From Fibrobacter sp. (GTDB lineage: Bacteria; Fibrobacterota; Fibrobacteria; Fibrobacterales; Fibrobacteraceae): DNA of 64,000 nucleotides. Each line of letters begins with the position of its first letter. The first letter of the stretch is position 1. The notes beneath the pieces were generated by a model. The model saw only the letters and a list, made by a program, of their open reading frames with translations. It made no database searches and was not told where the DNA came from. The position numbers were made by a program, and so were the translations under genes. Of the stretch, positions 40,568 to 58,542 are shown piece after piece. The stretch spans positions 1 through 64,000 of the forward strand of contig JAFVGH010000068.1 in NCBI GenBank assembly GCA_017475045.1, given 5' to 3'.

Positions 40568-42613
40568 TTACTGGAACTTGGCGGTAAACTTGTCGCCGTC
40601 TTCTGGAGAAACTAGTCTCGGATTCTCCCTGACTCCATCCGACCAACCGACAAACGTGGCTCCTGCCGACGCAACCGCCGTCAGCAGCATATCGTTTCCG
40701 GCAAAGAACGTGCCAGTATAGTTCGTACTGGGAAGTTGCATGTCATCAACAAGAACTTTGCCACTCCCCTGAACGCCAATGGTGACACTGATATCAGCGC
40801 CTAGGCCAAATTCGGTACGATATTCACCCCTTACCGTCGCCGTTCGCGTAGAAGCGTAGGCAACCAGGTTGCTGCCACTTCTATCAAAAGGCAAATTATA
40901 ACCAGGACGAACAAATGTTCTCAAATCACGATCCATCTCTGCTGAAGAGAGCTGGCTATTGATACGGGCAACAGCATCACTCACTTTTTGGCTCGTCAAA
41001 TAACTGGTAAACAGCACAGCGGCATGGTTAATAAACATCCGTCTAAAATCTGGATTTTTAATCAGCTTGAGGTACATCCCAGCGATACAATTATCACCAC
41101 TGCATCCGCTATGCCCACCCTGTTTCATCCAGCTAAACATATTAGTACGGGCACCGAACCCCGCAACAGCCCACTCCCATTCAAAGCCATGGTCCACATC
41201 AAAAATCATGTATCTGAACGGCTCATCCGGAGATCTCCACGCACGAACATTGTTGTCGGGCCAGTCTCCATTATGGATATAAAATTCCATAGTTACGTAA
41301 TCAGCAAAATTCCCCAAATTCAACATGGTCTGCGCTTTCGCATAATTGCTTCGGGCAATCTGAGCCTCCGTTGCATTGGACGTATCCGTCTTAAAATGAT
41401 TTTTTTCTGCAAAGAGCGCCAACATGTTATTATACGAATCTACAGTTCCCCCAGTGGCTGTAACTTCCAATCCAAGATGTTTCACCAAATCCACCTGCTT
41501 GGAATCAATGCCATAATTAGTCTCTACGAAATGTTCATTCAGCCTTTCACGCATGTCGTGAATACCATAGTACCTGCCATTGTAAAACACAACCACCATG
41601 CGGCTCCGTTGATAATCGACAGAAGTACCTTCTGCAAGGCTTGTAAGGGCCGGATCCCCCACATAGTCCGACACATAACGGTTCCCTCCATTACGCAAAT
41701 TGAATCCCTTGAACTTGTTCGCCTCCGGGCGCGTTTCAAACAAGCTGTATTTCAAACGGCCATCTTCATAAATACTCTTCATCTTCACAGACACCGACTT
41801 CTTTTCGTAGGTACGGCTCCAGCCACCCATTAGCGAGATTCCCGCGTCAATTTGCCAGGTTTTCTTGGCACTCAAGCTACCATTCTCAAAATATTCCACA
41901 TGCACCGGGTATTCAGCCTCGGCCATCAGCCCCGGAGTACAATACTTGGGGTCTCCGCCAGCACAACCCGCTTGATAGACATAGTTATTCTGGAAAAATT
42001 TCGGATCCACGCTAATTGCCACCACCGGCATAGAAACCGTCTCATTGATAAAGAAGGTATGGCTAGACGAGCGAACCGCCTCGCCCCCCACAAATTCTGC
42101 ACAGCGTACCGGAGTATTTGATGTCACTGTATAAGGTTCAATAAATTTCCACGAATTTTCCGTAGGTGCAGAACCATCGAACGTACAATGAATCTCGCCT
42201 CCATTCACAGCTTCAGGCACAGGAAGCGTCAGGCCGTCACTATAAAATCCTGCCGGAGGAAGCATCCGCACTTTCTCGTCTTCTTTTTCCTCTCCGTCAT
42301 CACCGGTGATATCCTTCTCGCCACCATTTTCTTTTCCTACGTTTCCAGAACTACTTGACTTTGAGGAATCTTTTTCTCCGGAATCACTAGAATACAGAGG
42401 GTTGCCCCCATTGGCCAACTGATCCAAGTACCAAGTATAAAGAGAATCCGACATCAAGATACTATCGGGAATCACCTTGCCATCAGGACCAATTACCGTC
42501 CCCATCTCCTCGGGTTTACTAGTAGACCCGTCATCACCGCAAGCCGAAAAAACAAGCAGGACGAACGGAACAAGCAGCACAAAAAAAGAACTATACAAGC
42601 TTTTGCTGTTCAT
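40568..42613 (-). CDS. CotH-kinase-like lipoprotein, copy 1
   Basis: 681 aa from ATG 42613, preceded by AGGAGAG. Lipobox LVFSAC. An acidic, Ser-rich linker (near 60-100) leads to a beta module of chitobiase C-terminal type (FYSDGLTLPVP...HCTFDGSAPTE). The CotH domain (about 190-560) follows, with ERLNEHFVETNYGID, a catalytic-loop-like NGDWPDNN (Asp450) and a metal-site-like FDVDHGF (Asp472, Asp474). The C-terminal ~70 residues form a beta repeat ending GATFVGWSDG. CotH proteins are atypical kinases that phosphorylate Ser-rich coat proteins in Bacillus; whether this one does so outside the cytoplasm is open. It starts 8 bp after its partner lipoprotein gene. Confidence 0.78.
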   Translation of the reverse strand: MNSKSLYSSFFVLLVPFVLLVFSACGDDGSTSKPEEMGTVIGPDGKVIPDSILMSDSLYTWYLDQLANGGNPLYSSDSGEKDSSKSSSSGNVGKENGGEKDITGDDGEEKEDEKVRMLPPAGFYSDGLTLPVPEAVNGGEIHCTFDGSAPTENSWKFIEPYTVTSNTPVRCAEFVGGEAVRSSSHTFFINETVSMPVVAISVDPKFFQNNYVYQAGCAGGDPKYCTPGLMAEAEYPVHVEYFENGSLSAKKTWQIDAGISLMGGWSRTYEKKSVSVKMKSIYEDGRLKYSLFETRPEANKFKGFNLRNGGNRYVSDYVGDPALTSLAEGTSVDYQRSRMVVVFYNGRYYGIHDMRERLNEHFVETNYGIDSKQVDLVKHLGLEVTATGGTVDSYNNMLALFAEKNHFKTDTSNATEAQIARSNYAKAQTMLNLGNFADYVTMEFYIHNGDWPDNNVRAWRSPDEPFRYMIFDVDHGFEWEWAVAGFGARTNMFSWMKQGGHSGCSGDNCIAGMYLKLIKNPDFRRMFINHAAVLFTSYLTSQKVSDAVARINSQLSSAEMDRDLRTFVRPGYNLPFDRSGSNLVAYASTRTATVRGEYRTEFGLGADISVTIGVQGSGKVLVDDMQLPSTNYTGTFFAGNDMLLTAVASAGATFVGWSDGVRENPRLVSPEDGDKFTAKFQ
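40641..40714. repeat. Near-identical 74-bp segment shared by the two CotH genes (copy 1)
   Basis: Matches 44863-44936 with a single mismatch by eye, although the genes differ clearly just outside. It encodes the C-terminal beta repeat (GTFFAGNDMLLTAVASAGAT). Confidence 0.85.
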
Positions 42614-42621
42614 ACTCTCTC

Positions 42622-44763
42622 CTAGTAACAATGCGGTATTTTCATCGATTTTCCATCAGGAATATTCAGCTTTACTGGATAACGAACAGTAAGCTTCCCG
42701 GTATAGTCCCAATCACTACCAATTGTTACAGATGATTCAAACCATTCAACAATCTCGCTAGAATATGACGAACCATATTCCCAAGTTGCAGCCTCCCCCA
42801 TATATTGCTGGCATCCATTGACAATATACTTTCCTGCCCCAAGCGTTTCGGATAGGCTGGCCAGGTCACTGAGATAATCAAACTCAAGATATCCCGAGTT
42901 ACATTCTCTGACATTCAATCTAGAGCACGTCAGATTCGACTCCGTGCTCAACCCAGCATCCAGTTTCAGTGTAGCGGAAACTTCCCCTATTTCATCTGGC
43001 ACAAATTCAGGAACAGCTTCATCGCTGGTCCAAATAACTTTTCCACTTTTGTCGGTAAAAGTCCACTGATAAGAATTCGCCTCAACCGGCAGATCACCCT
43101 TTAGCAAACGCCACGACATCGACCTTTCGCTACAGGAAAGAGGATAAGACGGGCCACATTTCGAAGCAGCAGCCGTACATACCGTATCACCCTCGAACAA
43201 CATGGCATACAATGCATAATCCGACGGACTGATTGTCACAGACGGTCCTGATGTCCAAGACCACATATAGCGGTCTTCGTAATCAAAATACGGCGCACTA
43301 GCCGTAACTTTTTTTGACACATTGTCACTTGCGGAAACAAGGGTTAATTCAACAAATTGAATCTTGTCCGAAATTCCAACGAGAGAGCCTGTGTAAAAAT
43401 AATATCCAGAACTTGATTTAAGAATGGAGCAACTTGCCGACACAGGGGTCATCACCGGCACCGTTTTGCAAGCGGGTTCCATGGTCCCACCATCGCTGTT
43501 GGTCACCGTCAATGTCGGAGCATAGTCACCCGCAGCCGCTGGAGTACCCACAGCCGAGATCCCTGTACCCGAGGCCCCGTTATTCCATTCGTAGGTAAAG
43601 GGGGGGGCCCCAGAGCAACCGGACACGGTCCAGGTGGCACTTACGTCTTGTCCTTCGCGAAGAACCAATTTGGTAGCATCCGTTGTACAAACGCACCCTG
43701 TCACGGGAGTGGCTTCTACAGTCACCACAGAGCAAACAATCTCGTCACTCTCCGACTTGCGTCCCTTGTTCAGCACAAGCTTCGCCCTGTAGGTTCCGCT
43801 ACTACCATAGCTCACTTCAGGAGACGAAGCGTCGCTTGTAGCAATCGATGCATTTTCATCAAAATTCCACGAGTAGGAAACCACAGTGCCGCCCATATTG
43901 TAAAAGGAATAAGTCACCGATTCTCCCTTTTCAACAACACTTTTGGAAACGGTGCACACTCCGCGTACCTTGGTTTCGTCATTTTCAGCAGTCGAGGACG
44001 ATGCCGGCTTGCCCGACGAAGAAGAACTGCCTGGCATCACCTCCGACGACGAGGAACCGGCCGGTTTCGTTCCCGACGAAGACGACTTCGGCTGCGAAGA
44101 CGTCACCGCCTTGCCGTTACCGTACCATACACCATCCTTACACTGATACACTGCCATCTTGCCCATTACATAGATATATCCATTACCAGAGCAGTCGGGC
44201 AAGTCACTTTCAGAGACTACACCGCCAGGAATTTCCACCCATTTTCTTGCAAGGCAGGCTACCATATTTTTTCCCGCAACAAAGATATCACCTTCCCTGT
44301 TTTCGGTGCAAGCCTTCAAGTCTTCTTCCGAACCGACGGTATCCTGGACTAAGGCGTTCATAAAGCAACCAACAAATTCAAGTTCATCAAAAAGGTTTCC
44401 CTTTACATCTTTCCACAAACCCGACTTACACTGATAGGGTTTCTCTTCGGAATAAACATAAACCCACTGACCGTCCAAAGCCTTGTCACAGGGGCGAACG
44501 TTGCATATTCCTCTTGCCACCTCCACCACTTTTTCCCAATTCTGCGACACACAGGCATAGTACATTCCATCTACAACAGCGAGGGTTCCACCATTATCAG
44601 CCGCGCATTCCGGCAAATCATCCAGCGAGGCCGCCTCCACAATACGGCCATTTTCCTCACAATCCTGACACCCCACCTCTGTAGACCCATCACCACCACA
44701 GGCAACGAGAATAAGCAACGCAAGAACTCCCAAAAGGGCAAAGGGATTTTTGAAAGTATTCAT
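42622..44763 (-). CDS. Poly-Ser, PKD-like lipoprotein, CotH partner copy 1
   Basis: 713 aa. Lipobox LLILVAC. Four short Cys-pair units follow (each C...Y/V-x-C-x5-W, about residues 50-210). A Ser-rich linker comes next (about 225-262), then PKD-like beta domains (VSYSWNFDENASIATSDASSPEVSYGSSG; FTYEWNNGASGTG...YAPTLTVTNSDGG). The C-terminal region is Cys-containing and unrecognised. Probably displayed on the outer membrane, binding carbohydrate or protein. It lies third in a four-gene operon, 26 bp after the upstream CotH gene and 8 bp before the downstream one. Its N-terminal layout matches the gene at 46744-49110. Confidence 0.72.
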   Translation of the reverse strand: MNTFKNPFALLGVLALLILVACGGDGSTEVGCQDCEENGRIVEAASLDDLPECAADNGGTLAVVDGMYYACVSQNWEKVVEVARGICNVRPCDKALDGQWVYVYSEEKPYQCKSGLWKDVKGNLFDELEFVGCFMNALVQDTVGSEEDLKACTENREGDIFVAGKNMVACLARKWVEIPGGVVSESDLPDCSGNGYIYVMGKMAVYQCKDGVWYGNGKAVTSSQPKSSSSGTKPAGSSSSEVMPGSSSSSGKPASSSTAENDETKVRGVCTVSKSVVEKGESVTYSFYNMGGTVVSYSWNFDENASIATSDASSPEVSYGSSGTYRAKLVLNKGRKSESDEIVCSVVTVEATPVTGCVCTTDATKLVLREGQDVSATWTVSGCSGAPPFTYEWNNGASGTGISAVGTPAAAGDYAPTLTVTNSDGGTMEPACKTVPVMTPVSASCSILKSSSGYYFYTGSLVGISDKIQFVELTLVSASDNVSKKVTASAPYFDYEDRYMWSWTSGPSVTISPSDYALYAMLFEGDTVCTAAASKCGPSYPLSCSERSMSWRLLKGDLPVEANSYQWTFTDKSGKVIWTSDEAVPEFVPDEIGEVSATLKLDAGLSTESNLTCSRLNVRECNSGYLEFDYLSDLASLSETLGAGKYIVNGCQQYMGEAATWEYGSSYSSEIVEWFESSVTIGSDWDYTGKLTVRYPVKLNIPDGKSMKIPHCY

Positions 44764-44789
44764 AAATTATTTCCCAGAACTATATTCTC

Positions 44790-46742
44790 TTATCGGAAAT
44801 TAGCCGTAAACTTGTCGCCATCCTTTGGCGATACAAGCCGTGGGTTATTCGTTTTACCATCTGACCAACCGACAAACGTGGCCCCTGCCGACGCAACCGC
44901 CGTCAGCAGCATATCGTTTCCGGCAAAGAACGTGCCGGTATAGCTTGCAGCAGGAAGTTTCATACCGTCAACAAGGACCCGGCCACTTCCCTGAGCGGAA
45001 ATGGTGACACTAATATCGCTGCCTAAGCCAAATTCTTCGCGGTATTCCTCACGGGTCCCTTGGGTTCTGGTCTTTGCGTAAGAAACCACATAAGCACCAG
45101 TGCGATCAAAAGCATACGGACCGCTCGGACGCACCAGGGTCTTTAAGTCCCTATCCATTTCTGTCGACGGAATCTCGGAATTTATCCTATTTACGGCCGC
45201 AACAATACGATCGTATGTCAAGTAGCTAGAAAGCATCACCGCACCGTGGTTGACAAACATTCTGCAAAAGTCAGGATTCTCCCGCAATTTAATAAAAATA
45301 TGGGCAAAGAACTTGGGACCAGTCCGCCCCGACTCCCTGTCATTTCTAATCCAGTCAAACATGGATACAGAACCGGCCCGCCATAAGGCGCTCCATTCCC
45401 AACCAAAGCCCTGATCCACATCAAATAAAATGAATCGGTATGGCTGGTCAGTCGAACGCCAGGCACGTACATTGTTGCTGGGCCAGTCCCCATTCCGCAG
45501 GTAAATTTGTGCAGCCATGTAGTCGGCATAGTTACCCACATCCAGCAAGGTCTGCACTTTCTTGTAGTTTTCTACGGCCTTCTTTGCTTCACTGGCATCG
45601 GAAGTATCTGTTTTAAAATGGTTATCCCCGATAAATTTTAGCATGTTGATGTAGGAATCGGCCGTCCCTCCATTGGCGGTAACAGAATCCTTCACCTGCT
45701 TAATCATATCAACTTCTTTGGAATCGATTCCATGGTTGGTTTCTACAAAATGCTCATTCAGGCGTTCCCGCAAGTCGTGAATTCCCTTATACACTCCGTT
45801 ATAAAACACCACCACTTGGCGGCTACGCTGGTAATCCACCGTAGACCCTTCCACTACACTAGTCATGGCAGGGTCTGCCACAAAGTCACCCACATAGCGG
45901 TTTCCGCCGTTACGCAGGTTGAATCCCTTAAACTTGTTATCTTCGGGGCGGGTAGAGAACAGACTATACTTTAAACGGCCATCCTGGTATTCCTTTTTCA
46001 TCTTGATGGCCACGGGCTTCTTTTCATAGGTACGGCTGTAGTTACCCGTCAAGGAAATTCCCGCATCAATTTGCCAGTCTTTCTTGACGCTAGCGCTTCC
46101 CTTTTCGAAAAACTCCACATGCACGGGATACTCCGCTTCTTCCATAATGGGAACTTTGCAGCTATATGGATTTGCACCATAGCAATCCGAAGTATTGCCG
46201 TACCGCTCTCTGAAGAACACGGAATCCACACTGATGGCTACCACCGGCATGGCAACAGTCTCGTTGATAAAGAACGTATGGCTAGACTCACGGGCAATAG
46301 AGTCCCCGATAAATTCTGCGCAACGAATCGGCGTATTACGGGTCACCTTGTAAGGTTCTGTGAACTCCGTCGATTCCGTAGTCGGCTTAGAGCCGTTGTA
46401 AGTACAGCGAATTTTCCCGCCATACAGAGGGGCCGGCACTGGGATGGTCAGCTCAGAATAAAATCCGGCTGGAGGCAAGAGACGAACCTTGCCCTCATCA
46501 TCATCCTCCTCATCATTCTCATCATTGTCACCGTTCTTTCCATCTTTGCCAGGATCCAACGAATCTTTTCCATCACCAAGTTCATCCAGGTACCAGGAAT
46601 ACAAAGAATCCGACGACAAGGCACCATCAGGAAATTCTTCGGGCCCCCTGACGGAATCAGAAGAATCACAGGCCGTCATAGCGAGGGCCGATATTGCAAG
46701 TACAAAAGAAAATGGCAAAAATAGGAATCTCTTTTTCATCAT
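44790..46742 (-). CDS. CotH-kinase-like lipoprotein, copy 2
   Basis: About 650 aa. The start is either of two adjacent ATGs (46742 or 46739), just after GGAG. Lipobox ALAMTAC. It has the same layout as copy 1: acidic linker (here near-pure Asp/Glu/Asn), chitobiase-C-like beta module, then a CotH domain. That domain has ERLNEHFVETNHGID, NGDWPSNN (Asp419) and FDVDQGF (Asp441, Asp443). It ends with a beta repeat finishing GATFVGWSDG. A 74-bp stretch coding for that end is nearly identical to copy 1. The gene begins 1 bp from the stop of the upstream lipoprotein gene, so translation is almost certainly coupled. Confidence 0.78.
   Translation of the reverse strand: MMKKRFLFLPFSFVLAISALAMTACDSSDSVRGPEEFPDGALSSDSLYSWYLDELGDGKDSLDPGKDGKNGDNDENDEEDDDEGKVRLLPPAGFYSELTIPVPAPLYGGKIRCTYNGSKPTTESTEFTEPYKVTRNTPIRCAEFIGDSIARESSHTFFINETVAMPVVAISVDSVFFRERYGNTSDCYGANPYSCKVPIMEEAEYPVHVEFFEKGSASVKKDWQIDAGISLTGNYSRTYEKKPVAIKMKKEYQDGRLKYSLFSTRPEDNKFKGFNLRNGGNRYVGDFVADPAMTSVVEGSTVDYQRSRQVVVFYNGVYKGIHDLRERLNEHFVETNHGIDSKEVDMIKQVKDSVTANGGTADSYINMLKFIGDNHFKTDTSDASEAKKAVENYKKVQTLLDVGNYADYMAAQIYLRNGDWPSNNVRAWRSTDQPYRFILFDVDQGFGWEWSALWRAGSVSMFDWIRNDRESGRTGPKFFAHIFIKLRENPDFCRMFVNHGAVMLSSYLTYDRIVAAVNRINSEIPSTEMDRDLKTLVRPSGPYAFDRTGAYVVSYAKTRTQGTREEYREEFGLGSDISVTISAQGSGRVLVDGMKLPAASYTGTFFAGNDMLLTAVASAGATFVGWSDGKTNNPRLVSPKDGDKFTANFR
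44863..44936. repeat. Near-identical 74-bp segment shared by the two CotH genes (copy 2)
   Basis: Counterpart of 40641-40714 (one mismatch seen), in the same orientation and at the same place within the paralogous gene. Confidence 0.85.
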
Positions 46743-46743
46743 T

Positions 46744-49110
46744 CTACTCCACCACATCTTTCACACAACGCACAGAAAACATGACCTCAGTCGCAGTTTC
46801 AACCGAAGCGTCCAGATTCATTCCATCACTATCGTAGGCGACTTTGTACGCCTCCCCATCACTAACCCAAAAACGGGTTTCGTCATCGCTGTAGCAGTTA
46901 CCATTCCAACAGCACCCTGCCGGCAACGCTGAAAAACCAAAGAGATTACTACCTGCAGCAACGGCAACTCTTGTTCCGCTATGTTTGGTCTGTACCGCAG
47001 TTCCTTCAGCCATCCAGCCTTCTTCTGCCTTAAGGCTCTTGCCTATACCCTCCAATCCATTATTCTCATCTACATAGGCAAACAGTTCACTCCAATCAGA
47101 TAGGGTAGGAACATGCCAACCACTGGGGCACAATGTCGCAGATGGGCCACTATACAATCTGCCATATTTTTCGCAATAAGAATCCAGCCCCAACGGGCAA
47201 ACAGAACCATCCTCTGCATAATTCAAATTTTGCGCCATCCAAGTCTGCGAACCGATATTGATTATTCCGTACGTTTGATCATCACGACTATCCACCAGCA
47301 CCGTCGCCGGGTCCGCAACCGTCAAATCCGAACATGTCAGCTCGTTTTCAGAAGCCAAGCCCTTATCCAAAACAAGGGTCGCCTTGACCTTCCCATAATT
47401 CAACGCTGTGAATTGCGGTGACACCAACGTACTTGTCGAAATAACAGATCCACTCTTATTCGTAAATGTCCACGAATAGGAATTCGGAGTTGCCGTCGAA
47501 TAATCGGACGAACTCAAATTCCAGGTAACTACCCCACCATTGTCCACAACCTTCTCCGAAGGGGCGCAAGAAGCCTTGGTGGCTGTGCAAATTGTATCGC
47601 CTGCATAAACTAGGGCATACACGGCGTAGGCAGAAATCCCAGATTCCACCTCTTTGTAATAACGCGTTATGGAGTAATCATAGTAGTACTCATATGCATC
47701 AACATTCCACCGAGACAGTTGATAGCCCTCTATCGGCCATTCCAAAGAAACACCGTCACCCGCCGACACAAGGGTACCTGCAATGGACGATATATTATCG
47801 GCTATTCCGCTAATGCGGTCTATCTGGAAACGATCCATCAATATCGAACACTCCGCACGGACCCCTTCCATCACCGTTACCGTCTGGCATACAGGTTCCA
47901 TAGTTCCGCCATCACTATTGATTACCGTCACCGTCGGGGCATATTTACCCGCAACAGCAGTTTGCCCTTTTGCAAATGCTCCCGTTCCAGAGGCTCCGTC
48001 ACTCCATTCGTATGTAAACGGAGATCCACCAGTACATCCCGAAACGCGCCACACCGCTTCAGCAGGCTTATCACCCCGAAGAATAAGACTCTCGGTGGTC
48101 GTAGTGCACTCGCATCCTGTCACCGGAAGAGCATTTATCAATACTCCGGTACATTCCACCTCATCACTTTCCGATGCCAGCCCCTTATTCAGTACCAGCT
48201 TTGCCTTGTGAACCCCACCACGGCTATAGCTTATAGTCGGAGAAGCCTCGATACTTGTGGCTGCCGACGCATTCGCTCCAAAATCCCAGGAATACGAAAC
48301 GATAGTACCACCCAGGTTGTAGAAAGAGTACGACACCTCCTCGCCCTTCGACGCCTCTTTCAGCGAAGCAACGCACACTCCCCTAACCTTGGTTCCATCA
48401 TCTACGGGTGGCTCTGCCGAAGAAGAAGACTCAACCGACGCTGACGATTCCGGCAGCACCACGGCCTTGCCGTCCCTGTACCAGAGGTCACCTGTACATT
48501 GATAAGCGGCCATTTTGCCCAGCACATAAACCAGTTTCCCATTCATCTTACATTCCGGTAAATCGGCCTCGGAAAGAACGTAATTAAACACCTCGGCCCA
48601 ATTTTTCGAAGAACAAACCATCAGGCTCCCCGCCACAACAGCCAGGGCCCCTTCGTCGTTCTGAGTACAACTTCCCAACTCGCCTATAGCGTCCACAGTA
48701 TCCCGGACTAGCGAATTCAGAAAACATCCAACGAAGCTACTTTCTGCAAAGCCCCTACCGAAGGCATCTTTCCAGGAACCCGACTTGCACTGATAAGCCT
48801 TTCCATCTGATTTAGAAAGAACAACCTTTCCCTCTTGAGCATTGTCACAGGCAGGAATGTTACAAACGCCAGCCACCGCGCTTTCTACGGCCAGCCAATC
48901 GTTGAACATGCAGGCATAGTTTTTTCCGTCTACTATCGACAGCTTTCCGGAGATATCCGACATGCAATCAGGCAGGTCTTCTAAGCTTGCATAAACGACG
49001 CCTTCACAATCCTGGCACTTCGCCTCTGTAGAACCACCAGAAGAACACGCTGCAAGAAACAGCGTCTGCAAGCACGCCAAAAAGAACGTAACCAAACCTT
49101 TACGTCTCAT
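46744..49110 (-). CDS. Poly-Ser, PKD-like lipoprotein with Fib_succ_major domain
   Basis: 788 aa from ATG 49110 (the longer frame to 49155 runs through the upstream terminator). Lipobox TLFLAAC. Cys-pair units (about 30-210), a short Ser-rich linker (SSASVESSSSAEPP) and PKD-like domains follow, as in the paralogue at 42622-44763. The last ~170 residues are the Fibrobacter 'major paralogous domain': YGIINIGSQTWMAQNLNY, SGWHVPTLSDWSELF, GFSALPAGC, FWVSD, VRCVKD. That domain occurs in many Fibrobacter surface proteins; its role is unknown. It is the first gene of the four-gene operon, with the promoter expected in 49111-49126. Confidence 0.8.
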   Translation of the reverse strand: MRRKGLVTFFLACLQTLFLAACSSGGSTEAKCQDCEGVVYASLEDLPDCMSDISGKLSIVDGKNYACMFNDWLAVESAVAGVCNIPACDNAQEGKVVLSKSDGKAYQCKSGSWKDAFGRGFAESSFVGCFLNSLVRDTVDAIGELGSCTQNDEGALAVVAGSLMVCSSKNWAEVFNYVLSEADLPECKMNGKLVYVLGKMAAYQCTGDLWYRDGKAVVLPESSASVESSSSAEPPVDDGTKVRGVCVASLKEASKGEEVSYSFYNLGGTIVSYSWDFGANASAATSIEASPTISYSRGGVHKAKLVLNKGLASESDEVECTGVLINALPVTGCECTTTTESLILRGDKPAEAVWRVSGCTGGSPFTYEWSDGASGTGAFAKGQTAVAGKYAPTVTVINSDGGTMEPVCQTVTVMEGVRAECSILMDRFQIDRISGIADNISSIAGTLVSAGDGVSLEWPIEGYQLSRWNVDAYEYYYDYSITRYYKEVESGISAYAVYALVYAGDTICTATKASCAPSEKVVDNGGVVTWNLSSSDYSTATPNSYSWTFTNKSGSVISTSTLVSPQFTALNYGKVKATLVLDKGLASENELTCSDLTVADPATVLVDSRDDQTYGIINIGSQTWMAQNLNYAEDGSVCPLGLDSYCEKYGRLYSGPSATLCPSGWHVPTLSDWSELFAYVDENNGLEGIGKSLKAEEGWMAEGTAVQTKHSGTRVAVAAGSNLFGFSALPAGCCWNGNCYSDDETRFWVSDGEAYKVAYDSDGMNLDASVETATEVMFSVRCVKDVVE

Positions 49111-49126
49111 AATAATGAATATATAT

Positions 49127-49150
49127 AAAAATCCCCGCAAAAGCGGGGAT
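49127..49150 (-). terminator. Intrinsic terminator after fibro-slime gene
   Basis: ATCCCCGC (49131-49138), AAAA, GCGGGGAT (49143-49150), then on - TTTTATATATA. It lies 31 bp after the stop of the fibro-slime gene; its T/A run merges with the promoter region of the next operon. Confidence 0.85.
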
Positions 49151-49181
49151 TTCATTCTAATTATCTAAACACGCTTCTTTT

Positions 49182-52100
49182 TTACTTTACAACGCCCTTG
49201 CCGCGCTTGGCACCCCACATGTCGGTTTCCTCCGCCTTACTGGACTTGGCCTTGCCAAGCTGAGCCAGTTTCACGTAAGAGGAAAGCTTGGCGATGTAGG
49301 CACCGGTACCCACCAGGCGCTTCTTATCCGAAAGCATGTTCCAAGAGATGTAGAAGTTGCCCTGCACCGAGCGGCAGTCCTTACCACCGAAGAATTCCTT
49401 ACCCAGCTTCTGCTTGTTGACTTCGTCCAGGCAGTAAATCTTCTGGCTCTTGCCGGCAACATAGTTACCCAGGTTGGTGTAGAACTTCACATCATACTGG
49501 AAATACACATCGGCAATGGCCTCAGGGTGTTCATTGAAGAACTTTTCCGTCACAGAGTCCTTACTCATGAACGAAGCCATGTCGGACTTGACGATAAAGC
49601 CCAAGGTGTTGGGATAAAGTTTAGCGATTTCATCCTTACCCATGGTAGTAGGAATCGTAAACACTTCTACCGCAGGCGTATTCTTGGCATCAATATCCTT
49701 GTTCATGGTTGCAAGCTTGATAGCGGAAACTTCTACAGAGTAGTCACCCACGATAGTCACCCACGGAGACGGAAGTCTCTTGGTGGAGTTGTAGTCCGTG
49801 GGAGAATTCCAATGCATGGTGCTATCGGTGGCAAGACGCTTAGTAACATCGCTAGCGATGTTCGCCGTATCGCTCCACATCCAGGAATCAGCACGGAAGC
49901 GGATAAAGTCACCCAGACGCGGTGTGGGGTTCTTGGTACTCTGGGTCTTGTCGAACACCAGGGTCAGTTTTTCAGAACCAAGTCCACCGGGGGCAGCGTT
50001 CGCCGTAGACGAGGCATAGCGTTTAGCCTCGGCAACTTCTGTTGCCGAATTCATGTAGAAGGTGAAGGGGGCCTTGCTGTTAGTCTGGTCAAGCAGTTTC
50101 ACCGGCTCAGAGAGGGTCACCGTCAAGCGGTTCAACTGATCGGAGAAGTTATCCACACGGGCACTTACAATCACAGGAGCGATACGGTCTGTAACGCTAC
50201 CGTCGAAATGTCCCTTAGTCACCTTCTTACGGTCTTCGTAAGTAGCAAAGTTCAGCACCTTACCACGGCCGGCCGTCTTCACCAAAGAGGAGAATGCGGA
50301 GTCGGCCGCGAATGTCAGCACGCTATCGCTCTTGTTGCCATTGGCCTTATAGCGAGCCATGAAGGTATTGTAGATTGTCAAGGAGTCAATCATGTAAGAG
50401 CAGGCCACAGCGGTATCCTTCTTCGTCTTGGAGAACGGGAGGGTATCCGACGGGGCAGCCGTCTTCTTGTACACCTTCATCTTGGTGAAGTCAATCTTTT
50501 CAAAGACGGTCTCGTCCCAATCAAGGCAAATCAAGAACGGCAAGGAATCTTTGTATGCACCCTGCGGGTTGGGAGCGAAAGGCCTATCGTAATGAATGGC
50601 AATAGAGTCGCCCTTACCGTCCAGGTATTCCTTAGTGGCAGAATAATACGGAGAAGGAATGCTTAGATTACCCAGGGATTCGCCACGAACATCGAACATG
50701 TCCACAAGCTGCGGATACGGTACTGGCGGCTTACGGAAATGCATGTTGACATAAGAAGACAAGCTAAGTCCCTTTGCATCTTCGGCCGTAGAAATCGTGA
50801 TGTAGGCCGTGGAGTCCGGATAGTATTCCTTACGGGAACGGATAGAAATCACGTATGTACCTTCACCGAGGAAAATCGGATCTCCTGGCATCGTCACACC
50901 AGCAGAAGCGTCTACCAGGGTCAAGGTCATCTGGCAATCCTTACAGATTTCGTTGGTCGCGGGGTTCACGATCAAAACATACATGTCTACATCGGAACCA
51001 ATCCAGTGGAAATACTCATCGCCATCCAAGGAGTCCGGGTCACCCGACAACGGATGCTTCCAGGCAGTCACCTTACCGGCAGAATCTACCGACACAGGTT
51101 CAGCAAAGTCCAGACGCGGGGCGTAGAACTTAATCTTCGCAGCGGTCTTCAAGGACACAGACTTTTCTTCGGGGCTTGCATTCAAACCATCAAGGCCCTG
51201 GTAAATCCAGATAGTGTCGATACCCGTGGCACCCACAGCCTTGGGCCAAGTCACCTTGGTATCGCCCGTCTTTGACGTATAAGCAGTCATACCCTTATCC
51301 AACACCAGGGTATACTTCTGACCAACTGCGCTCAGCAGGTCAACACCGCCATCAGCAAAGGCAGACACATACACAGGCACGCGAGATCCGGCAAGGCCCT
51401 TGTCCACAAAGGTCCACTTGGTTCCAGATGTGTAATAGGGACTCTTCTCGTCACCGGTGTTCACCGTATAGGTAGAATTCTGGGTCATCACATCCAAGTT
51501 ACCCTTGATGCGGAAGTTGATATAGGTACGGGCCTTTTCATCAGGTGTAGACGATCCTTTTTCATAGAAGTCGATAACCAGACGGTAGCTTCCCGGTGCA
51601 AGGCCGCTAATCTTGTCGGCGTTCACAATGGGCTTGAAGGGGTTACTGATATCGATACCGCCATACTGCCAACCCGACTTTCCGGATTCCAGAGTAGCGA
51701 CTTCCTGACCCGCCCTGGTGGTAATCTTATACTTCAGAGTACCGTACTGCTTGATGGCGTCATCGCAAGCGTGGATGGTTCCACCATCAGTGCCAGCCTG
51801 ACCAAGAGCAACAGATGCGCAAGAGCCGTCTCCGCTCTTGTCGTAGCAGACGCTATACTTCGTTGTACCGTCAGAGTTCTTCTTACCGTTGGCATTCAAG
51901 CCACTGGTCTGCTTAATGAACATGTTGGTCTTGATAATCACGTTACTCATGGTAGTTCTGCGGTCGCAGAAGAAGATATCCAGAGAATAGTCCTTACCCG
52001 CTTCCAGGAACTTTGCACCATACTTGTTATTCAAGTTCTTAAGCACCACATGTCCGGGTGCGGCAAGGTGGGCACCGCCATTATCCACAGCAAGCCTCTT

Positions 52101-53699
52101 GTTGATGAACACCCAAATATCGTCGTCACCACGGAAAGTGAATTCCTGGTCTTCGCTATAGGTAAAGGTAGCATGGGACTCAAAGCAGAAGTGCTGGTTA
52201 CGAGTCTGGGCAGGCTGCTCACCAGCACCCCAACGGGCACCACCACCGGCACCAATATCCCAGTTCCATTTAACGTAGCCGGCATCGTCAGAAACAAACA
52301 TGCCTTCACAGTCCACACCACCAGACCAACCAGGGCCGTTGCACAGGTAGTCAAGGTTCGTGATTCCCGGATACTCCACCGTATACGTCACGGGGCCTTC
52401 GGCTTTGCGCTTTTTACGGCAACCTGGGCATTTTGTCGGACTTATGGAGGTAATCACATCATTACCGGCAGTGCTCTCAGTTTCGTCTTCGCGAGGGGAG
52501 AATCCTCCTATTACAGTTCCATTCTTGACATGGTCGGAATCAAAAGCCCAACGGCCATCGGCGGCACGGGAGAAGGGCATATTGTAGCACACCACCTCGT
52601 TCTTATTAGCGGTGTAGTTGAACAGCGTAGAGAAGGTTTTGTCGTCAGTAAAGCATTTCGGGCCGTTGGTTCCCTTCGTGTTGAGGTGGGGTTTGTTGTC
52701 TTTACCCAAGCTATCCTCCACAATGCCATGGTGCACACCCACGCAGTTCTCCGCCTGCTGGGTTGAACTGCCTTGGTACTCAGAGAACAAATCATTCTTT
52801 TCTACATCGGAGTCATAGATAATAGCGGCAAGGTCAAAGGAGCAGACACCACTTACACCGGGGTCCGTCACAAAAAGTCCCTGGGCATCTTCCATTCCTT
52901 CCGGCCATTGGGAATCGTCAGGCATAAAGTAAAGGCGGTCTGTACCCAAGGCTTCAAGAATAGACTTCAAAGGAAGCGGAGTCGGTTCGGCCTCGTTGCC
53001 CCACAGGCCCGTGGCACCCAACTTCTCCTCGGGTTTGTTCTTGAGGTACACCAGCACTTCGTCCGGGACCTTGCTTTCTTCATAGACCATCATCATCCAG
53101 CCGCACATATTCGGGGCTGTCGTCATCTGCACACCGGCACCACCGTTGGCGCTGACCATCATGTTGTCAGACTGCCACTCCTTGTCGTCGGGAGTAAGCA
53201 CGTAGAAGTACTTGGCGGAGGGAGGCACAGAACCTATGTAGGTCTTAGCCGTGGCACTCAGAGGATCCTGTGCTATATAAATGGTACTGTCTACACCCGG
53301 ACAGCCAAAAACAGCATTATTCGTAAGAGCATTCTTAGGCTCTTCGCCACCATTTACTGAGCCCACCCACCCAGTTTTGGTTATTACCGACATGCTGCCT
53401 TTTGTAACGCTATTGAGAATACTAAAGTTATTTCCTCCGTTTTCTTGATGGCCTATAGTGCTCAAGTCAAACGTAAAGTATCCGTCAGCATCCAAGGTAG
53501 TAGCATGACCTGCTTCCGTCGCATCACAATTTCGCGTACCAAAATACGCTTGAGTCCAACCAGTAGGCGGCTTAAAGCGCACGGTTCCCGCACACTGTGC
53601 ATCCGCCATGCTGCTAAATGCACCAACAGCGACCAGCAGTGCCGGTAAGAACTTTCCAAACACGTTCCCTAGACCCGAAATGGAAAACCTTTTTGACAT
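49182..53699 (-). CDS. Fibro-slime domain surface protein
   Basis: 1505 aa. Signal peptide of about 34 residues (LPALLVAVGAFSSMADA). The middle (about 440-600) is a PA14-like 'fibro-slime' domain: ESHATFTYSEDQEFTFRGDD, DIWVFINKRLAVDNGGAHL, DYSLDIFFCDRRTTMSNV. The N-terminal part has Cys-containing beta modules and the C-terminal ~800 residues are repeated beta sandwiches. Fibro-slime proteins of F. succinogenes are linked to surface adhesion on cellulose (family knowledge). Large and probably exported via T9SS or a similar route (inference). AAGGTG precedes the ATG. Own terminator; 216 bp of A/T-rich DNA upstream hold the promoter, with no ORF. Confidence 0.85.
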   Translation of the reverse strand: MSKRFSISGLGNVFGKFLPALLVAVGAFSSMADAQCAGTVRFKPPTGWTQAYFGTRNCDATEAGHATTLDADGYFTFDLSTIGHQENGGNNFSILNSVTKGSMSVITKTGWVGSVNGGEEPKNALTNNAVFGCPGVDSTIYIAQDPLSATAKTYIGSVPPSAKYFYVLTPDDKEWQSDNMMVSANGGAGVQMTTAPNMCGWMMMVYEESKVPDEVLVYLKNKPEEKLGATGLWGNEAEPTPLPLKSILEALGTDRLYFMPDDSQWPEGMEDAQGLFVTDPGVSGVCSFDLAAIIYDSDVEKNDLFSEYQGSSTQQAENCVGVHHGIVEDSLGKDNKPHLNTKGTNGPKCFTDDKTFSTLFNYTANKNEVVCYNMPFSRAADGRWAFDSDHVKNGTVIGGFSPREDETESTAGNDVITSISPTKCPGCRKKRKAEGPVTYTVEYPGITNLDYLCNGPGWSGGVDCEGMFVSDDAGYVKWNWDIGAGGGARWGAGEQPAQTRNQHFCFESHATFTYSEDQEFTFRGDDDIWVFINKRLAVDNGGAHLAAPGHVVLKNLNNKYGAKFLEAGKDYSLDIFFCDRRTTMSNVIIKTNMFIKQTSGLNANGKKNSDGTTKYSVCYDKSGDGSCASVALGQAGTDGGTIHACDDAIKQYGTLKYKITTRAGQEVATLESGKSGWQYGGIDISNPFKPIVNADKISGLAPGSYRLVIDFYEKGSSTPDEKARTYINFRIKGNLDVMTQNSTYTVNTGDEKSPYYTSGTKWTFVDKGLAGSRVPVYVSAFADGGVDLLSAVGQKYTLVLDKGMTAYTSKTGDTKVTWPKAVGATGIDTIWIYQGLDGLNASPEEKSVSLKTAAKIKFYAPRLDFAEPVSVDSAGKVTAWKHPLSGDPDSLDGDEYFHWIGSDVDMYVLIVNPATNEICKDCQMTLTLVDASAGVTMPGDPIFLGEGTYVISIRSRKEYYPDSTAYITISTAEDAKGLSLSSYVNMHFRKPPVPYPQLVDMFDVRGESLGNLSIPSPYYSATKEYLDGKGDSIAIHYDRPFAPNPQGAYKDSLPFLICLDWDETVFEKIDFTKMKVYKKTAAPSDTLPFSKTKKDTAVACSYMIDSLTIYNTFMARYKANGNKSDSVLTFAADSAFSSLVKTAGRGKVLNFATYEDRKKVTKGHFDGSVTDRIAPVIVSARVDNFSDQLNRLTVTLSEPVKLLDQTNSKAPFTFYMNSATEVAEAKRYASSTANAAPGGLGSEKLTLVFDKTQSTKNPTPRLGDFIRFRADSWMWSDTANIASDVTKRLATDSTMHWNSPTDYNSTKRLPSPWVTIVGDYSVEVSAIKLATMNKDIDAKNTPAVEVFTIPTTMGKDEIAKLYPNTLGFIVKSDMASFMSKDSVTEKFFNEHPEAIADVYFQYDVKFYTNLGNYVAGKSQKIYCLDEVNKQKLGKEFFGGKDCRSVQGNFYISWNMLSDKKRLVGTGAYIAKLSSYVKLAQLGKAKSSKAEETDMWGAKRGKGVVK

Positions 53700-53915: not shown

Positions 53916-55766
53916 TTACTCAACTTCGTATTCTACTTCGCACACCGTGTTACCGTGGTAATCCAGCCTGTAGGTGTACGTACCCGGCTCCGTGGGCAAG
54001 GTGACCTGCTGCCACTGGGGGGTATTGTATCCATTGGTAACATCCTGGTTTTCAACAAGGATTTCATCACCAAAATAGAGTGTCATTTTTTGCGGGCTTG
54101 GAGCACTTCCCCACCCACTAAAGGAATTTGCGCCGGGGGTAAAGAAGTCTTTTCCGCTATTCCAAACATTTTTCCCTATAGCACAACCAGTTGAAGTGAT
54201 TGCAGGGTACTCCACCTTCATCGTAGCCTTGCAAACCTGGTTCCCGCCATAGGTAAGAGTGTATTCGTAGCTTCCCAGCTCAGTGGGAGCTGTTATACTA
54301 AAGCCTCCATTGTAGCTGCGGTTTACCGTAATATTTTGGCTAGAGCCGTTTCCATTCAAAGTCATGGACACATTATCACCCATAGCGTCAGTCCAACCGC
54401 TAAGCGATCCTACATTAAACTTGACGCTTCCACCAGGCAAAACAGAACTTGCAAAAGAACAACTTGCCGTCACCTTCGGATATTCCACCGTTAGGCTGGC
54501 TGAGCACACTTCTTCGCCGTCCGCAGAAAGCGTTATCGGATACGTTTTCAGCTCAGACGGTGCCTTCAGCGACGTCTCGTTCTTTCCCCAGTTATTATCA
54601 GAAATAATTGTAACTTCTTTAGGGGTCCCATTTCCAATAGTCAGATCCATTGTCATAGAACCACTAACTCCCGTAACAGACTTCGCCTTAAAGACGAAAG
54701 ACTGACCGGGCATAGTACTAATAGAACCTGAATTTGAGTTGTTTACCGCATTTTGGTCAGCGCCCACGACACATTGTGCCCCCGGCAATTCCGATGCAGT
54801 CACCGAGTTGCATGTGGGGCTCATGGTCATGCCGTCGCTGTTGGTGACGGTCACCGTCGGGGTATACGTACCCTTTGCCGAGATAGTCATGGTGCCCGAG
54901 GTACCCGTTCCAGAGATTCCGCCACCCCACGCATAGGTAAAGGGTTCCGCTCCCGTGCAGCCGCTCACCGTCCAGGTTGCCTCCTTGGACTTAGAAGAAG
55001 ACACGACCAGGGATTTCGTAGGCGTGGTACAGGTACAGCCGCTCACCTTAATTCCGGTCACCTCTACCTTGGACTGGCACTTGACCTCTTTTTCCGTGGC
55101 GAGTCCCTTGTTTATCACCACCGCCGCTCCGTAAGAGCCCTTGGCGGCGTAGGTTACGGCAGGGGTGGCATCCTTGCTCGAGGCGATAGAGCTCCCTTCG
55201 TCAAAGGTCCAGTCGTAACTTTCAATGGTGACGCTGGAATTGATGGCCACGTACTTCCAGGTGGTAGGACCTCCCCTCTCTACACTGGCCGGGGTCGGAC
55301 TGCAGATGCCGTTGACAATGGGCGTAGTGGACTTGGAAGAAGACGATACAACAGCAACGCTGCTGCTTGAACCACCAGCGCTGTCGCTGGAACTTGTCGG
55401 TGTAATATCAGGTATTATCGCCGAAGAACTGGCAATTACCGGGCCCTTCGGGGTAGACGAGGAACTCACAGTTTGGGCAGAAGAGTCTGCACCGGAACCG
55501 GATCCATCTTGTTGACCTTCGCTAGAACTGAAAATTTCACCGCCCTCACCTGCCGCACGCTCCATGGCGGCGACACATTGAGGGTCCTCGTTACAGGCAG
55601 CCATCGCAGCCGGAATAAGGTTCGACATGCCGTCTTCGTTGAACTCGCCATAGTTCAACAGGGCCATTTCGTCTTCGAGGCCCTTGGCTTCCACGGCACC
55701 ATAATCACAGCTCCACAATAAAGCTGCAAGACACGTGAAAAATGCGCTTAAAAACACCCGTTTCAT
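53916..55766 (-). CDS. 'LLNYG' poly-Ser lipoprotein 1 with Ig-like repeats
   Basis: 616 aa. Lipobox ALLWSC. A conserved N-terminal segment reads DEMALLNYGEF, followed by a small Cys-paired helix (AACNEDPQCVAAMERAA). A long Ser-rich linker (about 78-150) leads to PKD-like domains (SYDWTFDEGSSIASSKDATPAV; FTYAWGGGISGTGTSG). Three tandem ~85-residue Ig-like repeats follow, each ending in a pattern like YxLxYxGNxVCxxxxxVEY. Paralogues are at 57142 and 58543. No enzymatic motif; probably a surface binding or structural protein. Confidence 0.72.
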   Translation of the reverse strand: MKRVFLSAFFTCLAALLWSCDYGAVEAKGLEDEMALLNYGEFNEDGMSNLIPAAMAACNEDPQCVAAMERAAGEGGEIFSSSEGQQDGSGSGADSSAQTVSSSSTPKGPVIASSSAIIPDITPTSSSDSAGGSSSSVAVVSSSSKSTTPIVNGICSPTPASVERGGPTTWKYVAINSSVTIESYDWTFDEGSSIASSKDATPAVTYAAKGSYGAAVVINKGLATEKEVKCQSKVEVTGIKVSGCTCTTPTKSLVVSSSKSKEATWTVSGCTGAEPFTYAWGGGISGTGTSGTMTISAKGTYTPTVTVTNSDGMTMSPTCNSVTASELPGAQCVVGADQNAVNNSNSGSISTMPGQSFVFKAKSVTGVSGSMTMDLTIGNGTPKEVTIISDNNWGKNETSLKAPSELKTYPITLSADGEEVCSASLTVEYPKVTASCSFASSVLPGGSVKFNVGSLSGWTDAMGDNVSMTLNGNGSSQNITVNRSYNGGFSITAPTELGSYEYTLTYGGNQVCKATMKVEYPAITSTGCAIGKNVWNSGKDFFTPGANSFSGWGSAPSPQKMTLYFGDEILVENQDVTNGYNTPQWQQVTLPTEPGTYTYRLDYHGNTVCEVEYEVE

Positions 55767-55873
55767 AAGCTACTCCATACCCCTGTAGTATTACACCTAT
55801 CCACTAATATATACTTTTTTTTACCAATGTAAACAAAAAATTTCATTTCGTTGATAAAAAACACGAAAAAACG

Positions 55874-55896
55874 CAAAAAAAAGCCCTCCCGGGAGG
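55874..55896 (-). terminator. Intrinsic terminator after intact Rpn gene
   Basis: Perfect palindrome CCCTCCCGGGAGGG (55883-55896) followed on - by CTTTTTTTT. It lies 28 bp after the Rpn stop. Confidence 0.8.
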
Positions 55897-55923
55897 GAGG
55901 GGGCGTCTAGCTATATGGCGTTG

Positions 55924-56967
55924 CTACGGTTTGCCAGGAGATTCCTTGGCCTTTCCCGCTACGATTTTCCGAGCTTTTTCGATTAGGTTGGCCGGCACGC
56001 CAAGGGACTCCAGAATGTCGATTCCTTCGGCACGACCTTTGGTAAGACCTTCGGCACGACCTTTGGCAAGACCTTTGGCAAGACCTTCAGCACTAGCTTT
56101 CTCACAGGCTTCGGCACAGGCTTTTTCCGTGCCACGACGTATGCCGCTGGCAATAATCGTATCTATCTCTTCCCGCGTTACCATGTCCTTCTCCTGCCTC
56201 GTCAAGAGTTCGTCGTCTGCGTTGTCCACCCGGATGCGTTCCAGGGCCTCCTCCAGAATCTCGTTGCCAAAATGCGGCAGTTCCTTGCCATCGCCGGCGT
56301 GGTTCAGCAGGTACAGCCAGGCGTCCACGGATCCTGAGACTTCGCTTTCGGATTTCTTGAACTTGGGCAGACTAATCATAATATACTTATTTTTCCCGAA
56401 AACGGGTGCCGCACTGCCGTTTTTCAGCGCATTGCGACTATATAGCGCCCATTCGTCTATGTATTCGTCATCTCTGGAGCTGGACAGGTCAAAGTCGCAA
56501 ATCCAGATGGAGACCGTTTCCGGAAGCTCGTACCGCTTGCTTTCTCGTATATCCCTGGGAAGTGCCTGGAACTCCTTGGTCCGTTCCATCTCCTGCTTGC
56601 CCTTGATAATCAAGAAAGCCTTGTAAAGGACAGCCCTGTCGGTAAAGAAGTCGTGTTCTGCCTTCTGCATCTCTATGTCGATAAAGCGTCCTGTGCCCGT
56701 GGTGGCGAAGATATCCAGGATCACCTTCTTGCTGCGGGCGGAACGCATCGTTATGGTCTTGTCGAAGGTGAAGGTGAGGTTCTTTATTCTGTCGTCGCCC
56801 TCCAGATGCAGGATTCCGTCCAAAAAATCCTTGAGGGCACTTTCGCTGTCAAAGAGTTCCTTGAAGCCGGTGTCGTATCTAGGGTCCAGATAGACTTGCC
56901 CCTGCAGCGATTCGGGGATAGGTCTCTTGCGGATGGGTTTGGCTTTTCTTTGCTTGTTTTTTCTCAT
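55924..56967 (-). CDS. Rpn/PD-(D/E)XK nuclease-family transposase-like protein, intact
   Basis: 347 aa. A basic N-terminus is followed by YLDPRYDTGFKELFDSE and LKDFLDGIL, the typical Rpn entry. The nuclease core has Asp85 (VILDIFATT) and Glu99 in DIEMQKAEHDFFTDRAVLY, the D...ExQ/K pattern. A later WICDFDLS and YIMISLPKF lead to a C-terminal run of Ala-Glu/Lys-Gly-Arg heptads (about 285-310) and the end ESLGVPANLIEKARKIVAG. E. coli Rpn proteins are DNA endonucleases that promote RecA-independent recombination. This is the only intact member of four here. It carries the shared leader upstream and its own terminator. Confidence 0.82.
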   Translation of the reverse strand: MRKNKQRKAKPIRKRPIPESLQGQVYLDPRYDTGFKELFDSESALKDFLDGILHLEGDDRIKNLTFTFDKTITMRSARSKKVILDIFATTGTGRFIDIEMQKAEHDFFTDRAVLYKAFLIIKGKQEMERTKEFQALPRDIRESKRYELPETVSIWICDFDLSSSRDDEYIDEWALYSRNALKNGSAAPVFGKNKYIMISLPKFKKSESEVSGSVDAWLYLLNHAGDGKELPHFGNEILEEALERIRVDNADDELLTRQEKDMVTREEIDTIIASGIRRGTEKACAEACEKASAEGLAKGLAKGRAEGLTKGRAEGIDILESLGVPANLIEKARKIVAGKAKESPGKP

Positions 56968-56969
56968 AG

Positions 56970-57066
56970 CGTCTTAATCCGGGTGCGCCCCGGTGTACGG
57001 CGAGGCGGAATACCCCGTACTGTATAAGACGTTTTTTTGAAACGAAAAAGGCCCTGTAAAGTTTCT
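56970..57066 (-). promoter_or_regulatory. Conserved Rpn leader, copy A
   Basis: On -: CAAAAAAACGTCTTATACA box (ends 57021), hairpin GTACGG/CCGTAC, then hairpin CGGG-N5-CCCG, then the Rpn start at 56967. The same order and box occur before three other Rpn copies. Confidence 0.6.
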
Positions 57067-57086
57067 TTTTACAGACTTACAAGGCA

Positions 57087-57114
57087 AAAAAAAAGCCCTC
57101 CCGGAAGGGAGGGC
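57087..57114 (-). terminator. Intrinsic terminator after LLNYG lipoprotein 2
   Basis: GCCCTCCC (57095-57102), GGAA, GGGAGGGC (57107-57114), then on - a run of nine T. Confidence 0.85.
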
Positions 57115-57141
57115 TAAAAAAATCAAATGAAATAGAATCGA

Positions 57142-58401
57142 TTAATACACACCACATTTTCCAGCCGCAGTCAAATTGACCACAACCGCACTCGAGTTGC
57201 ACGACACCGCAAAATACCACCCACTGTTGTTATTTCCAGTAGTCGCATTCGCATAAGTATTGCTGCCACAAGTAACTGAGGAGCCGGACATATCAGATCC
57301 ACCATTCTCACAATAGAAGAAGGAATAAGAACCAACACTCACCATAAGCGTATTTTCCCCTGCAGGAACAGGCATTTTACCATTCATCTCACTAATTTCA
57401 TATTTAGGATGATCCGAATCAATCACAGCTGGCGACGTACAGGTAATTGTTGAATCTGTTTCAGCGGTACTAACAGTCACCTTGGGCGTAAGTGGGGTTT
57501 CTGCCTTAACGCCACTAAGGCTCATGGTCCCCGTTGCTCCTGTTCCCGTCGCACCACTCCAAGAATATTTCGTAACAGCTGACTTACAGGACACATTCCA
57601 GCTAGCAGAGGCATCCTTAGCCACATCTACGGTTTCCGAAGTGGGCTTGCAGGAGCATCCTTCAATGGGGTCCCCGTTCACCCTGACAGAACCGCAGTTA
57701 ATGACCTTGTCCCTAATCTTCAGGGTCGCAGAATACGAGTTGGGCGTGGTATAGGTGGCAGTCACCGTCTTTGTCTTACAAGGCTGACTGGCGGTTCCTT
57801 CGCTAGACCCGGTCAAGGTCCATTCGCATGTAGCAGCGTTCACCATTTCGTTGTAATCCATTATCTGCCTTGCAGTGGAACCAGAAGGCAGAGAGGCCAC
57901 CGTGAAGGTCCAGGTTACAGGATTACCCTTCCGGACAGAGGTCGGGCTTGGTGCGCAAGAGCCATCGGGAGTAGAACCGTCCGAAACGACAGCGCTAGAA
58001 GCGGGAGTCGTGTTGCTGCCGGAGCCCGAACTGCCGGTGGGGGTCACCGATGCAGAAGACGTATTGACCACCGGGCCCTGGTTGTGGTTCGTAGAACCGC
58101 TACCACTGCTGGCCGGAGTATCGCCATTCTCGCCGGTACTGTCGGGCGGAATCACGTCTACGGCACCTTCCATCTTGGCCGCACAGCCACCCGGGGTCGT
58201 GTCGGCCATACATTCGGCCACGGCCTGGTTCACGAGAGTCTTCATGTTGCCCTCGTCGCCTTCGGCAAACGGGGGACCGTAGTTCAACAGGGCAAGTTCG
58301 TCGTCACCGCCCCTCACAATCACATCACCGTCACCGCAGGCCCAAAAAGCCGCAGCGGCAACGCTCAAAACAGAAAATCCTACAAGAAATTTCTTGTTCA
58401 T
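57142..58401 (-). CDS. 'LLNYG' lipoprotein 2
   Basis: 419 aa. Lipobox AAAAFWAC. The N-terminal motif DELALLNYGPPFAEGDEGNM is followed by a Cys-paired helical stretch. A Ser/Thr/Gly-rich linker, less pure in Ser than in its paralogues, precedes PKD-like domains (TWTFTVASLPSG; TKYSWSGATGTGATG). The C-terminal Cys-rich end has FFYCENGG and AVSCNSSAV. AGAGGT lies 8-13 bp before the ATG. No catalytic motif; function unknown, probably surface-exposed. Confidence 0.7.
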   Translation of the reverse strand: MNKKFLVGFSVLSVAAAAFWACGDGDVIVRGGDDELALLNYGPPFAEGDEGNMKTLVNQAVAECMADTTPGGCAAKMEGAVDVIPPDSTGENGDTPASSGSGSTNHNQGPVVNTSSASVTPTGSSGSGSNTTPASSAVVSDGSTPDGSCAPSPTSVRKGNPVTWTFTVASLPSGSTARQIMDYNEMVNAATCEWTLTGSSEGTASQPCKTKTVTATYTTPNSYSATLKIRDKVINCGSVRVNGDPIEGCSCKPTSETVDVAKDASASWNVSCKSAVTKYSWSGATGTGATGTMSLSGVKAETPLTPKVTVSTAETDSTITCTSPAVIDSDHPKYEISEMNGKMPVPAGENTLMVSVGSYSFFYCENGGSDMSGSSVTCGSNTYANATTGNNNSGWYFAVSCNSSAVVVNLTAAGKCGVY

Positions 58402-58542
58402 AATAAACCTCTTTGAGGTAAATATATGCTTTTTTGTGGGGATTTTCTAGTAAAAAGCCGTTAAATGACGCAATTTAGGTTGATTTTACAATTTTGCGTG
58501 ATAAACCTAGCCGTTTCTCGTAACGATATGTTTACGCAAGCG

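Follow-up and report, generated by a model that had tools for sequence, protein, structure and literature searches.

A conserved Fibrobacter gene pair encoding a PKD-type lipoprotein and a putative CotH-family envelope kinase

Among the described systems that resemble the locus reported here is CotH of Bacillus with CotB and CotG, in which the kinase gene lies next to genes for envelope proteins rich in Ser. The known substrates of Bacillus CotH are Ser/Lys/Arg repeats; these phosphorylated regions are disordered, Ser-rich and encoded close to the kinase gene, and the residues D228 and D251 of the B. subtilis protein are required for activity (PMC7821199). Secreted CotH proteins also occur in the cellulosomes of bacterial and anaerobic-fungal cellulose degraders, some of them from the rumen, and provide a precedent for an extracellular CotH (PMC12484212). 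A further CotH is part of the VTC-DUF4956-CotH module, which adjoins Pel genes in Gram-positives (PMC7112168). Fibrobacter also carries fibro-slime and FISUMP surface proteins, which are in general not paired with a kinase. Our literature search, which covered part of the journals, found no report on a Fibrobacter CotH.

The gene pair described here, designated A-B, resembles the Bacillus system in that B has the same five CotH active-site residues and its gene adjoins that of a Ser-rich envelope protein. Unlike Bacillus CotH, B is a predicted exported Gram-negative lipoprotein that carries a DSLYxW motif as well as CHB_HEX_C_1 and InlB-like domains, and no spores are involved; its partner A is a PKD/FISUMP lipoprotein and not a Ser/Lys/Arg repeat coat protein. 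In contrast to the cellulosomal CotHs, no dockerin domain was detected in B1 or B2 by the Pfam scan, and B is predicted to be lipid anchored and is paired with a dedicated lipoprotein. The CotH-VTC-DUF4956 operons include two in class-level relatives within the Fibrobacterota (L084 and L085) whose CotH has the domain architecture of B, whereas A-B has no neighbouring VTC or DUF4956 gene. The A-B pair is thus regarded as a variant of the CotH kind, found in this analysis only in Fibrobacter.

The window, the whole 64,000-nucleotide stretch that was analysed, comes from contig C53 of a Fibrobacter draft genome of 3.39 Mb. The initial annotation had placed two tandem A-B pairs in it, with 1–8 bp between the genes of a pair, and four ORFs on the minus strand were found there, in the order A2, B2, A1, B1 (Table 1). 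Calculated from the likely start codons, the gaps are about 1 nt between A2 and B2, 26 nt between B2 and A1, and 8 nt between A1 and B1. Since start and stop codons nearly touch within the pairs and the B2–A1 gap is so short, a single transcript for the four genes is likely. The promoter scan of this operon gave matches at chance level only. A2 is preceded by a fibro-slime protein gene and a hairpin terminator, and the fibro-slime gene is likely to form a transcript separate from A-B; at the other end, B1 lies tail to tail with the ScpA gene. Clustering of the fibro-slime gene with A-B is restricted to part of the genus. On its other side, the fibro-slime gene adjoins three more lipoprotein genes, two of them with PKD domains (53916–59793, minus strand), among which sits a PDDEXK_2 family transposase gene (55924–56967). 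Comparable groups of lipoprotein genes are also present elsewhere in Fibrobacter, in L087, L095, L140 and L150 from other genomes. Elsewhere in the window, a 2278-aa SprA_N protein (PF14349), which we take to be a gliding or type IX secretion component, is encoded on the minus strand at 22201–29037.

Table 1. Features of the duplicated A-B locus; positions are those of the window
Feature	Coordinates	Strand	Basis or remark
Fibro-slime protein gene, upstream of A2	49182..53699	-	TIGR02148, 108.6 bits
Hairpin terminator, between fibro-slime gene and A2	49128..49153	-	11 pairs plus T tract
A2 lipoprotein	46744..49110 (ORF 46744-49155; likely start ATG 49110, just past the terminator)	-	
Short Ser-rich linker of A2	48409..48450 (approximate)	-	Ser count
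B2 CotH-family lipoprotein	44790..46757 (likely start ATG 46742)	-	CotH profile, 103 bits
SDSLYSWYL motif of B2	46587..46613	-	sequence search
CotH kinase domain of B2	45060..46055	-	K246, E331, D424, N429, D446
A1 lipoprotein	42622..44763	-	domain scan and structure model
Poly-Ser linker of A1	43990..44100 (approximate)	-	Ser count; low pLDDT at 223-258
B1 CotH-family lipoprotein	40568..42631 (likely start ATG 42613)	-	CotH profile, 86 bits
SDSLYTWYL motif of B1	42425..42451	-	sequence search
CotH kinase domain of B1	40838..41833	-	profile match and alignment
3' end of B1	40568..40825	-	79% identical to B2 44790-45047; holds the 53-nt identical tract

Each A protein has a lipobox and combines about four Cys/Trp modules with a Ser linker and PKD domains. 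Their earlier description as Cys-pair/poly-Ser/PKD lipoproteins fits A1, whose linker has 18 Ser in 52 aa; for A2 it fits less well, the poly-Ser being weak (7 in 31), and it had missed the FISUMP domain at the A2 C-terminus (143 bits, with PKD_4 at 37 bits), which A1 does not have. The window genome contains 83 FISUMP domain matches. The structure model of A1 (pLDDT 67.6) is usable as a beta-rod, with beta repeats, a disordered linker at 223–258 and a chain of beta-sandwiches; its Foldseek matches are generic multi-domain beta proteins. Besides a lipobox and a linker, the B proteins contain CHB_HEX_C_1 ahead of the CotH domain, and an InlB-repeat-like C-terminus.

The association of A with B was surveyed in 80 Fibrobacter genomes, the named records behind the A-B loci being Fibrobacter MAGs. 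Full-length-type A is encoded by 21 genes in 19 of the 80 genomes; B lies directly downstream of 20 of these and, in the reversed locus L138, directly upstream of the remaining one. This recurrence shows that the arrangement in the window is not due to chance, and the pairing of a CotH gene with a poly-Ser lipoprotein gene noted there is conserved within the genus. No viral contigs were found in the survey. The pairing is confined to one subclass of A, since more remote A-like paralogues (those of the type encoded at 53916 in the window, and those in G058 and G059) have no CotH neighbour. In the phylogenetic tree, the paired Bs form one clade with a support of 100/99, and the paired and unpaired labels change once, compared with about 12 times when shuffled. 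Because the paired Bs are a single clade, co-occurrence counted genome by genome is not independent evidence of a functional link. This clade structure, the restriction of all cases to one genus and the existence of one solo B (L136) would also be expected if A and B were neighbours only because they descend from one hitch-hiking cassette, their products having no functional interaction. We consider this highly improbable. The pair is maintained in two types of genomic setting, either next to ScpA/glmS or at other sites, where A is longer (about 1100 aa); it has persisted through duplication, loss and recombination with its genes mostly overlapping or near-touching, and A and motif-bearing B fully co-occur over the 80 genomes. 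This survival through rearrangement and in two settings is a better argument than the co-occurrence by genome, and the A-B gene link is real.

The two pairs in the window are not products of a recent tandem duplication, which is ruled out by their divergence (47% identity between A1 and A2, 59% between B1 and B2) and by the tree. One subclade places B1 together with L102, L105 and a broken copy in L103; that of B2 is a different one and includes L101, L103 and L110–L113. As both contain other species, the duplication predates these. The intact A-B-A-B arrangement was found only in the window genome. The order in L103 is B1-type, A2-type, B2-type, and its B frames look interrupted, through either decay or draft error. 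L101 is a mosaic of an A1-type A and a B with a B1-type N-terminus and a B2-type CotH domain, as expected from unequal recombination between tandem copies. In the window itself, the 3′ ends of B1 and B2 share an identical tract of 53 nt and are 93% identical over the last 90 nt, compared with 46–76% elsewhere, which is probably the trace of a recent gene conversion limited to the B 3′ ends. In sum, the cassette was duplicated long ago, and related species have since seen losses, changes of gene order and conversion.

The CotH assignment of the initial annotation was confirmed: both B1 and B2 contain the NGDWPxNN and FDVDxGF motifs and score above the curated cut-off of 23.8 bits for profile PF08757. 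Single-sequence and profile searches of the PDB with B found no CotH structure, while canonical CotHs of the window genome do match 5jd9/5jda. The B2 model, built from 14 sequences, is poor (pLDDT 51.6) and gave no fold-search match at E<=0.001. As profile–profile comparison of B with canonical CotH aligned the N-lobe only, the catalytic residues were mapped by multiple alignment. In this alignment to Bacillus CotH 5jd9, the catalytic K, E, D, N and D (B2 numbering in Table 1) are intact in all 14 paired Bs included, and 11 of 12 further Bs gave a full match in active-site motif searches. On our reading of the alignment, D228 and D251 of B. subtilis CotH would correspond to D424 and D446 of B2. 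Conservation of these positions is not automatic, since other CotHs of the window genome (L016, L017 and L026) deviate at the catalytic columns. The CotH domain plus C-terminus of B is under strong purifying selection, with a dN/dS of 0.05–0.08 in the four species pairs that allowed an estimate; the values for A are 0.15–0.36. The complete active site and the purifying selection support the view that the paired B is a working enzyme, as judged from sequence. Both also argue against the view that B has no catalytic function and serves, by means of its CotH fold, as a scaffold or assembly chaperone that keeps A or the cell surface matrix together. The scaffold role would agree with the accessory CHB_HEX_C_1 and InlB-like domains and with the structural or regulatory function proposed for cellulosomal CotH proteins (PMC12484212); we regard it as unlikely, though credible enough to be kept in mind. 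The CotH family is expanded in this lineage, with 4–18 genes in each Fibrobacter genome and mostly 0–2 in the other members of the phylum sampled (7 in G030). One group in the window genome (L018, contig C110, 8291–11994) consists of three tandem canonical CotH lipoproteins of 410–416 aa in what looks like a polysaccharide biosynthesis cluster.

Paired Bs carry the motif (S)DSLYxW(Y/F)(L/M) just after the lipobox. Across eight of them, S49, D50, L52, Y53 and W55 are the sole invariant columns between the lipid Cys C30 and K90. In a motif comparison, (S/T)DSLYxW was absent from unpaired Bs and from all other ORFs of the loci fetched. A DNA pattern for the motif matched at 22 places in 19 of the 80 genomes, identical to the 19 that encode A, and a backwards control pattern had no match in the 80. 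One of the 22 matches (TDSLYSWFL) belongs to the solo B of L136, which has no A neighbour; the A-paired B of the same genome has the variant QDSLYSWFM and was missed by the pattern. The solo B adjoins a 263-aa lipoprotein gene and a subtilase gene (L136, 4734–9333), whose products are possible alternative partners. The motif could also reflect plain ancestry within one clade.

It had further been proposed that the CotH proteins may phosphorylate poly-Ser tracts, either in the linker of the respective partner A or in other surface proteins. Several observations are in agreement with this: the A-B pairing is conserved, Ser-rich linkers are present in nearly all A homologues, and these linkers use both TCN and AGY codons for Ser, which may reflect selection on the amino acid as such. 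The mixed codons also speak against slippage as the only origin of the poly-Ser runs. The activity of Bacillus CotH on Ser-rich repeats encoded nearby is also in line with the proposal (PMC7821199). However, the number of Ser in the A linkers varies about 5-fold, from 7 to 33, with little in A2, and the A of L137 has no Ser run at the linker and instead an acidic SSSSEE stretch further along the protein. An SSSS run occurs in 45 of 89 putative lipoproteins of the fetched loci, a sample biased to these loci, and many of them lack a CotH neighbour. B1 itself has one SSSS run; B2 has none and an Asp/Glu/Gly/Asn-rich linker, and B2 relatives do carry poly-Ser. The A linkers are Ser-rich and variable in length, unlike the Lys/Arg-rich tandem repeats that serve as Bacillus substrates (PMC7821199). 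The variable Ser count, the displacement in L137 and the many poly-Ser lipoproteins without CotH make it most likely that poly-Ser is a spacer in general use in Fibrobacter, as opposed to a dedicated substrate. The proposal has thus gained no support, and we consider it distinctly unlikely; a poly-Ser tract may still be phosphorylated, but its presence does not identify the partner.

Both A and B have a lipobox, and most homologues start with acidic residues after the lipid Cys (CGDD/CSDD-like). These starts resemble a lipoprotein export signal, polar and then acidic residues behind the Cys, that is defined in Bacteroidetes only (PMC5080379). By analogy, A and B may be surface-exposed, with the caveat that the signal may not be that of Fibrobacter. 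We know of no ATP source outside the cytoplasm. The ATP-supply problem raised at the outset for an extracytoplasmic CotH therefore still stands, and it also counts in favour of the scaffold role. B might instead use another donor, e.g. polyphosphate, or catalyze another transfer, such as the nucleotide transfer of some kinase-fold enzymes. Polyphosphate is a conceivable donor because CotHs with the architecture of B occur in the VTC operons of L084 and L085 and because one VTC gene is present in 24 of 25 Fibrobacter genomes, in G013 and G018 about 8 kb from A-B. Yet VTC adjoins A-B in none of the genomes examined and is on another contig in the window genome. We rate a different donor or transfer as very unlikely, and polyphosphate as the donor of B is speculation.

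We propose, at slightly less than even confidence, that A and B are co-translated and form an envelope complex in which B is an active CotH kinase and the Ser linker is not its specific target. The two proteins would be the subunits of a single envelope module, produced in step from one transcript and held in the outer membrane by their anchors, probably on its outward side. A would form a rod, built of beta modules and PKD domains, and would present or bind a ligand. B would dock on A through DSLYxW and phosphorylate A or envelope proteins nearby, much as CotH phosphorylates coat proteins, with extracellular ATP or something else as the donor. A broader claim would be that B is a dedicated extracytoplasmic protein kinase of a Gram-negative bacterium: the short motif near its lipobox would dock it on the adhesin-like lipoprotein encoded with it, and it would phosphorylate the cell surface, perhaps from a source other than the ATP of the cytoplasm. 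As a whole, this seems to us rather unlikely. Fibrobacter is a main cellulose degrader of the rumen, and its attachment machinery is poorly understood. As the A-B pair provides a defined putative kinase together with a defined partner candidate and a possible docking motif, it makes the phosphorylation of surface proteins outside the cytoplasm directly testable.
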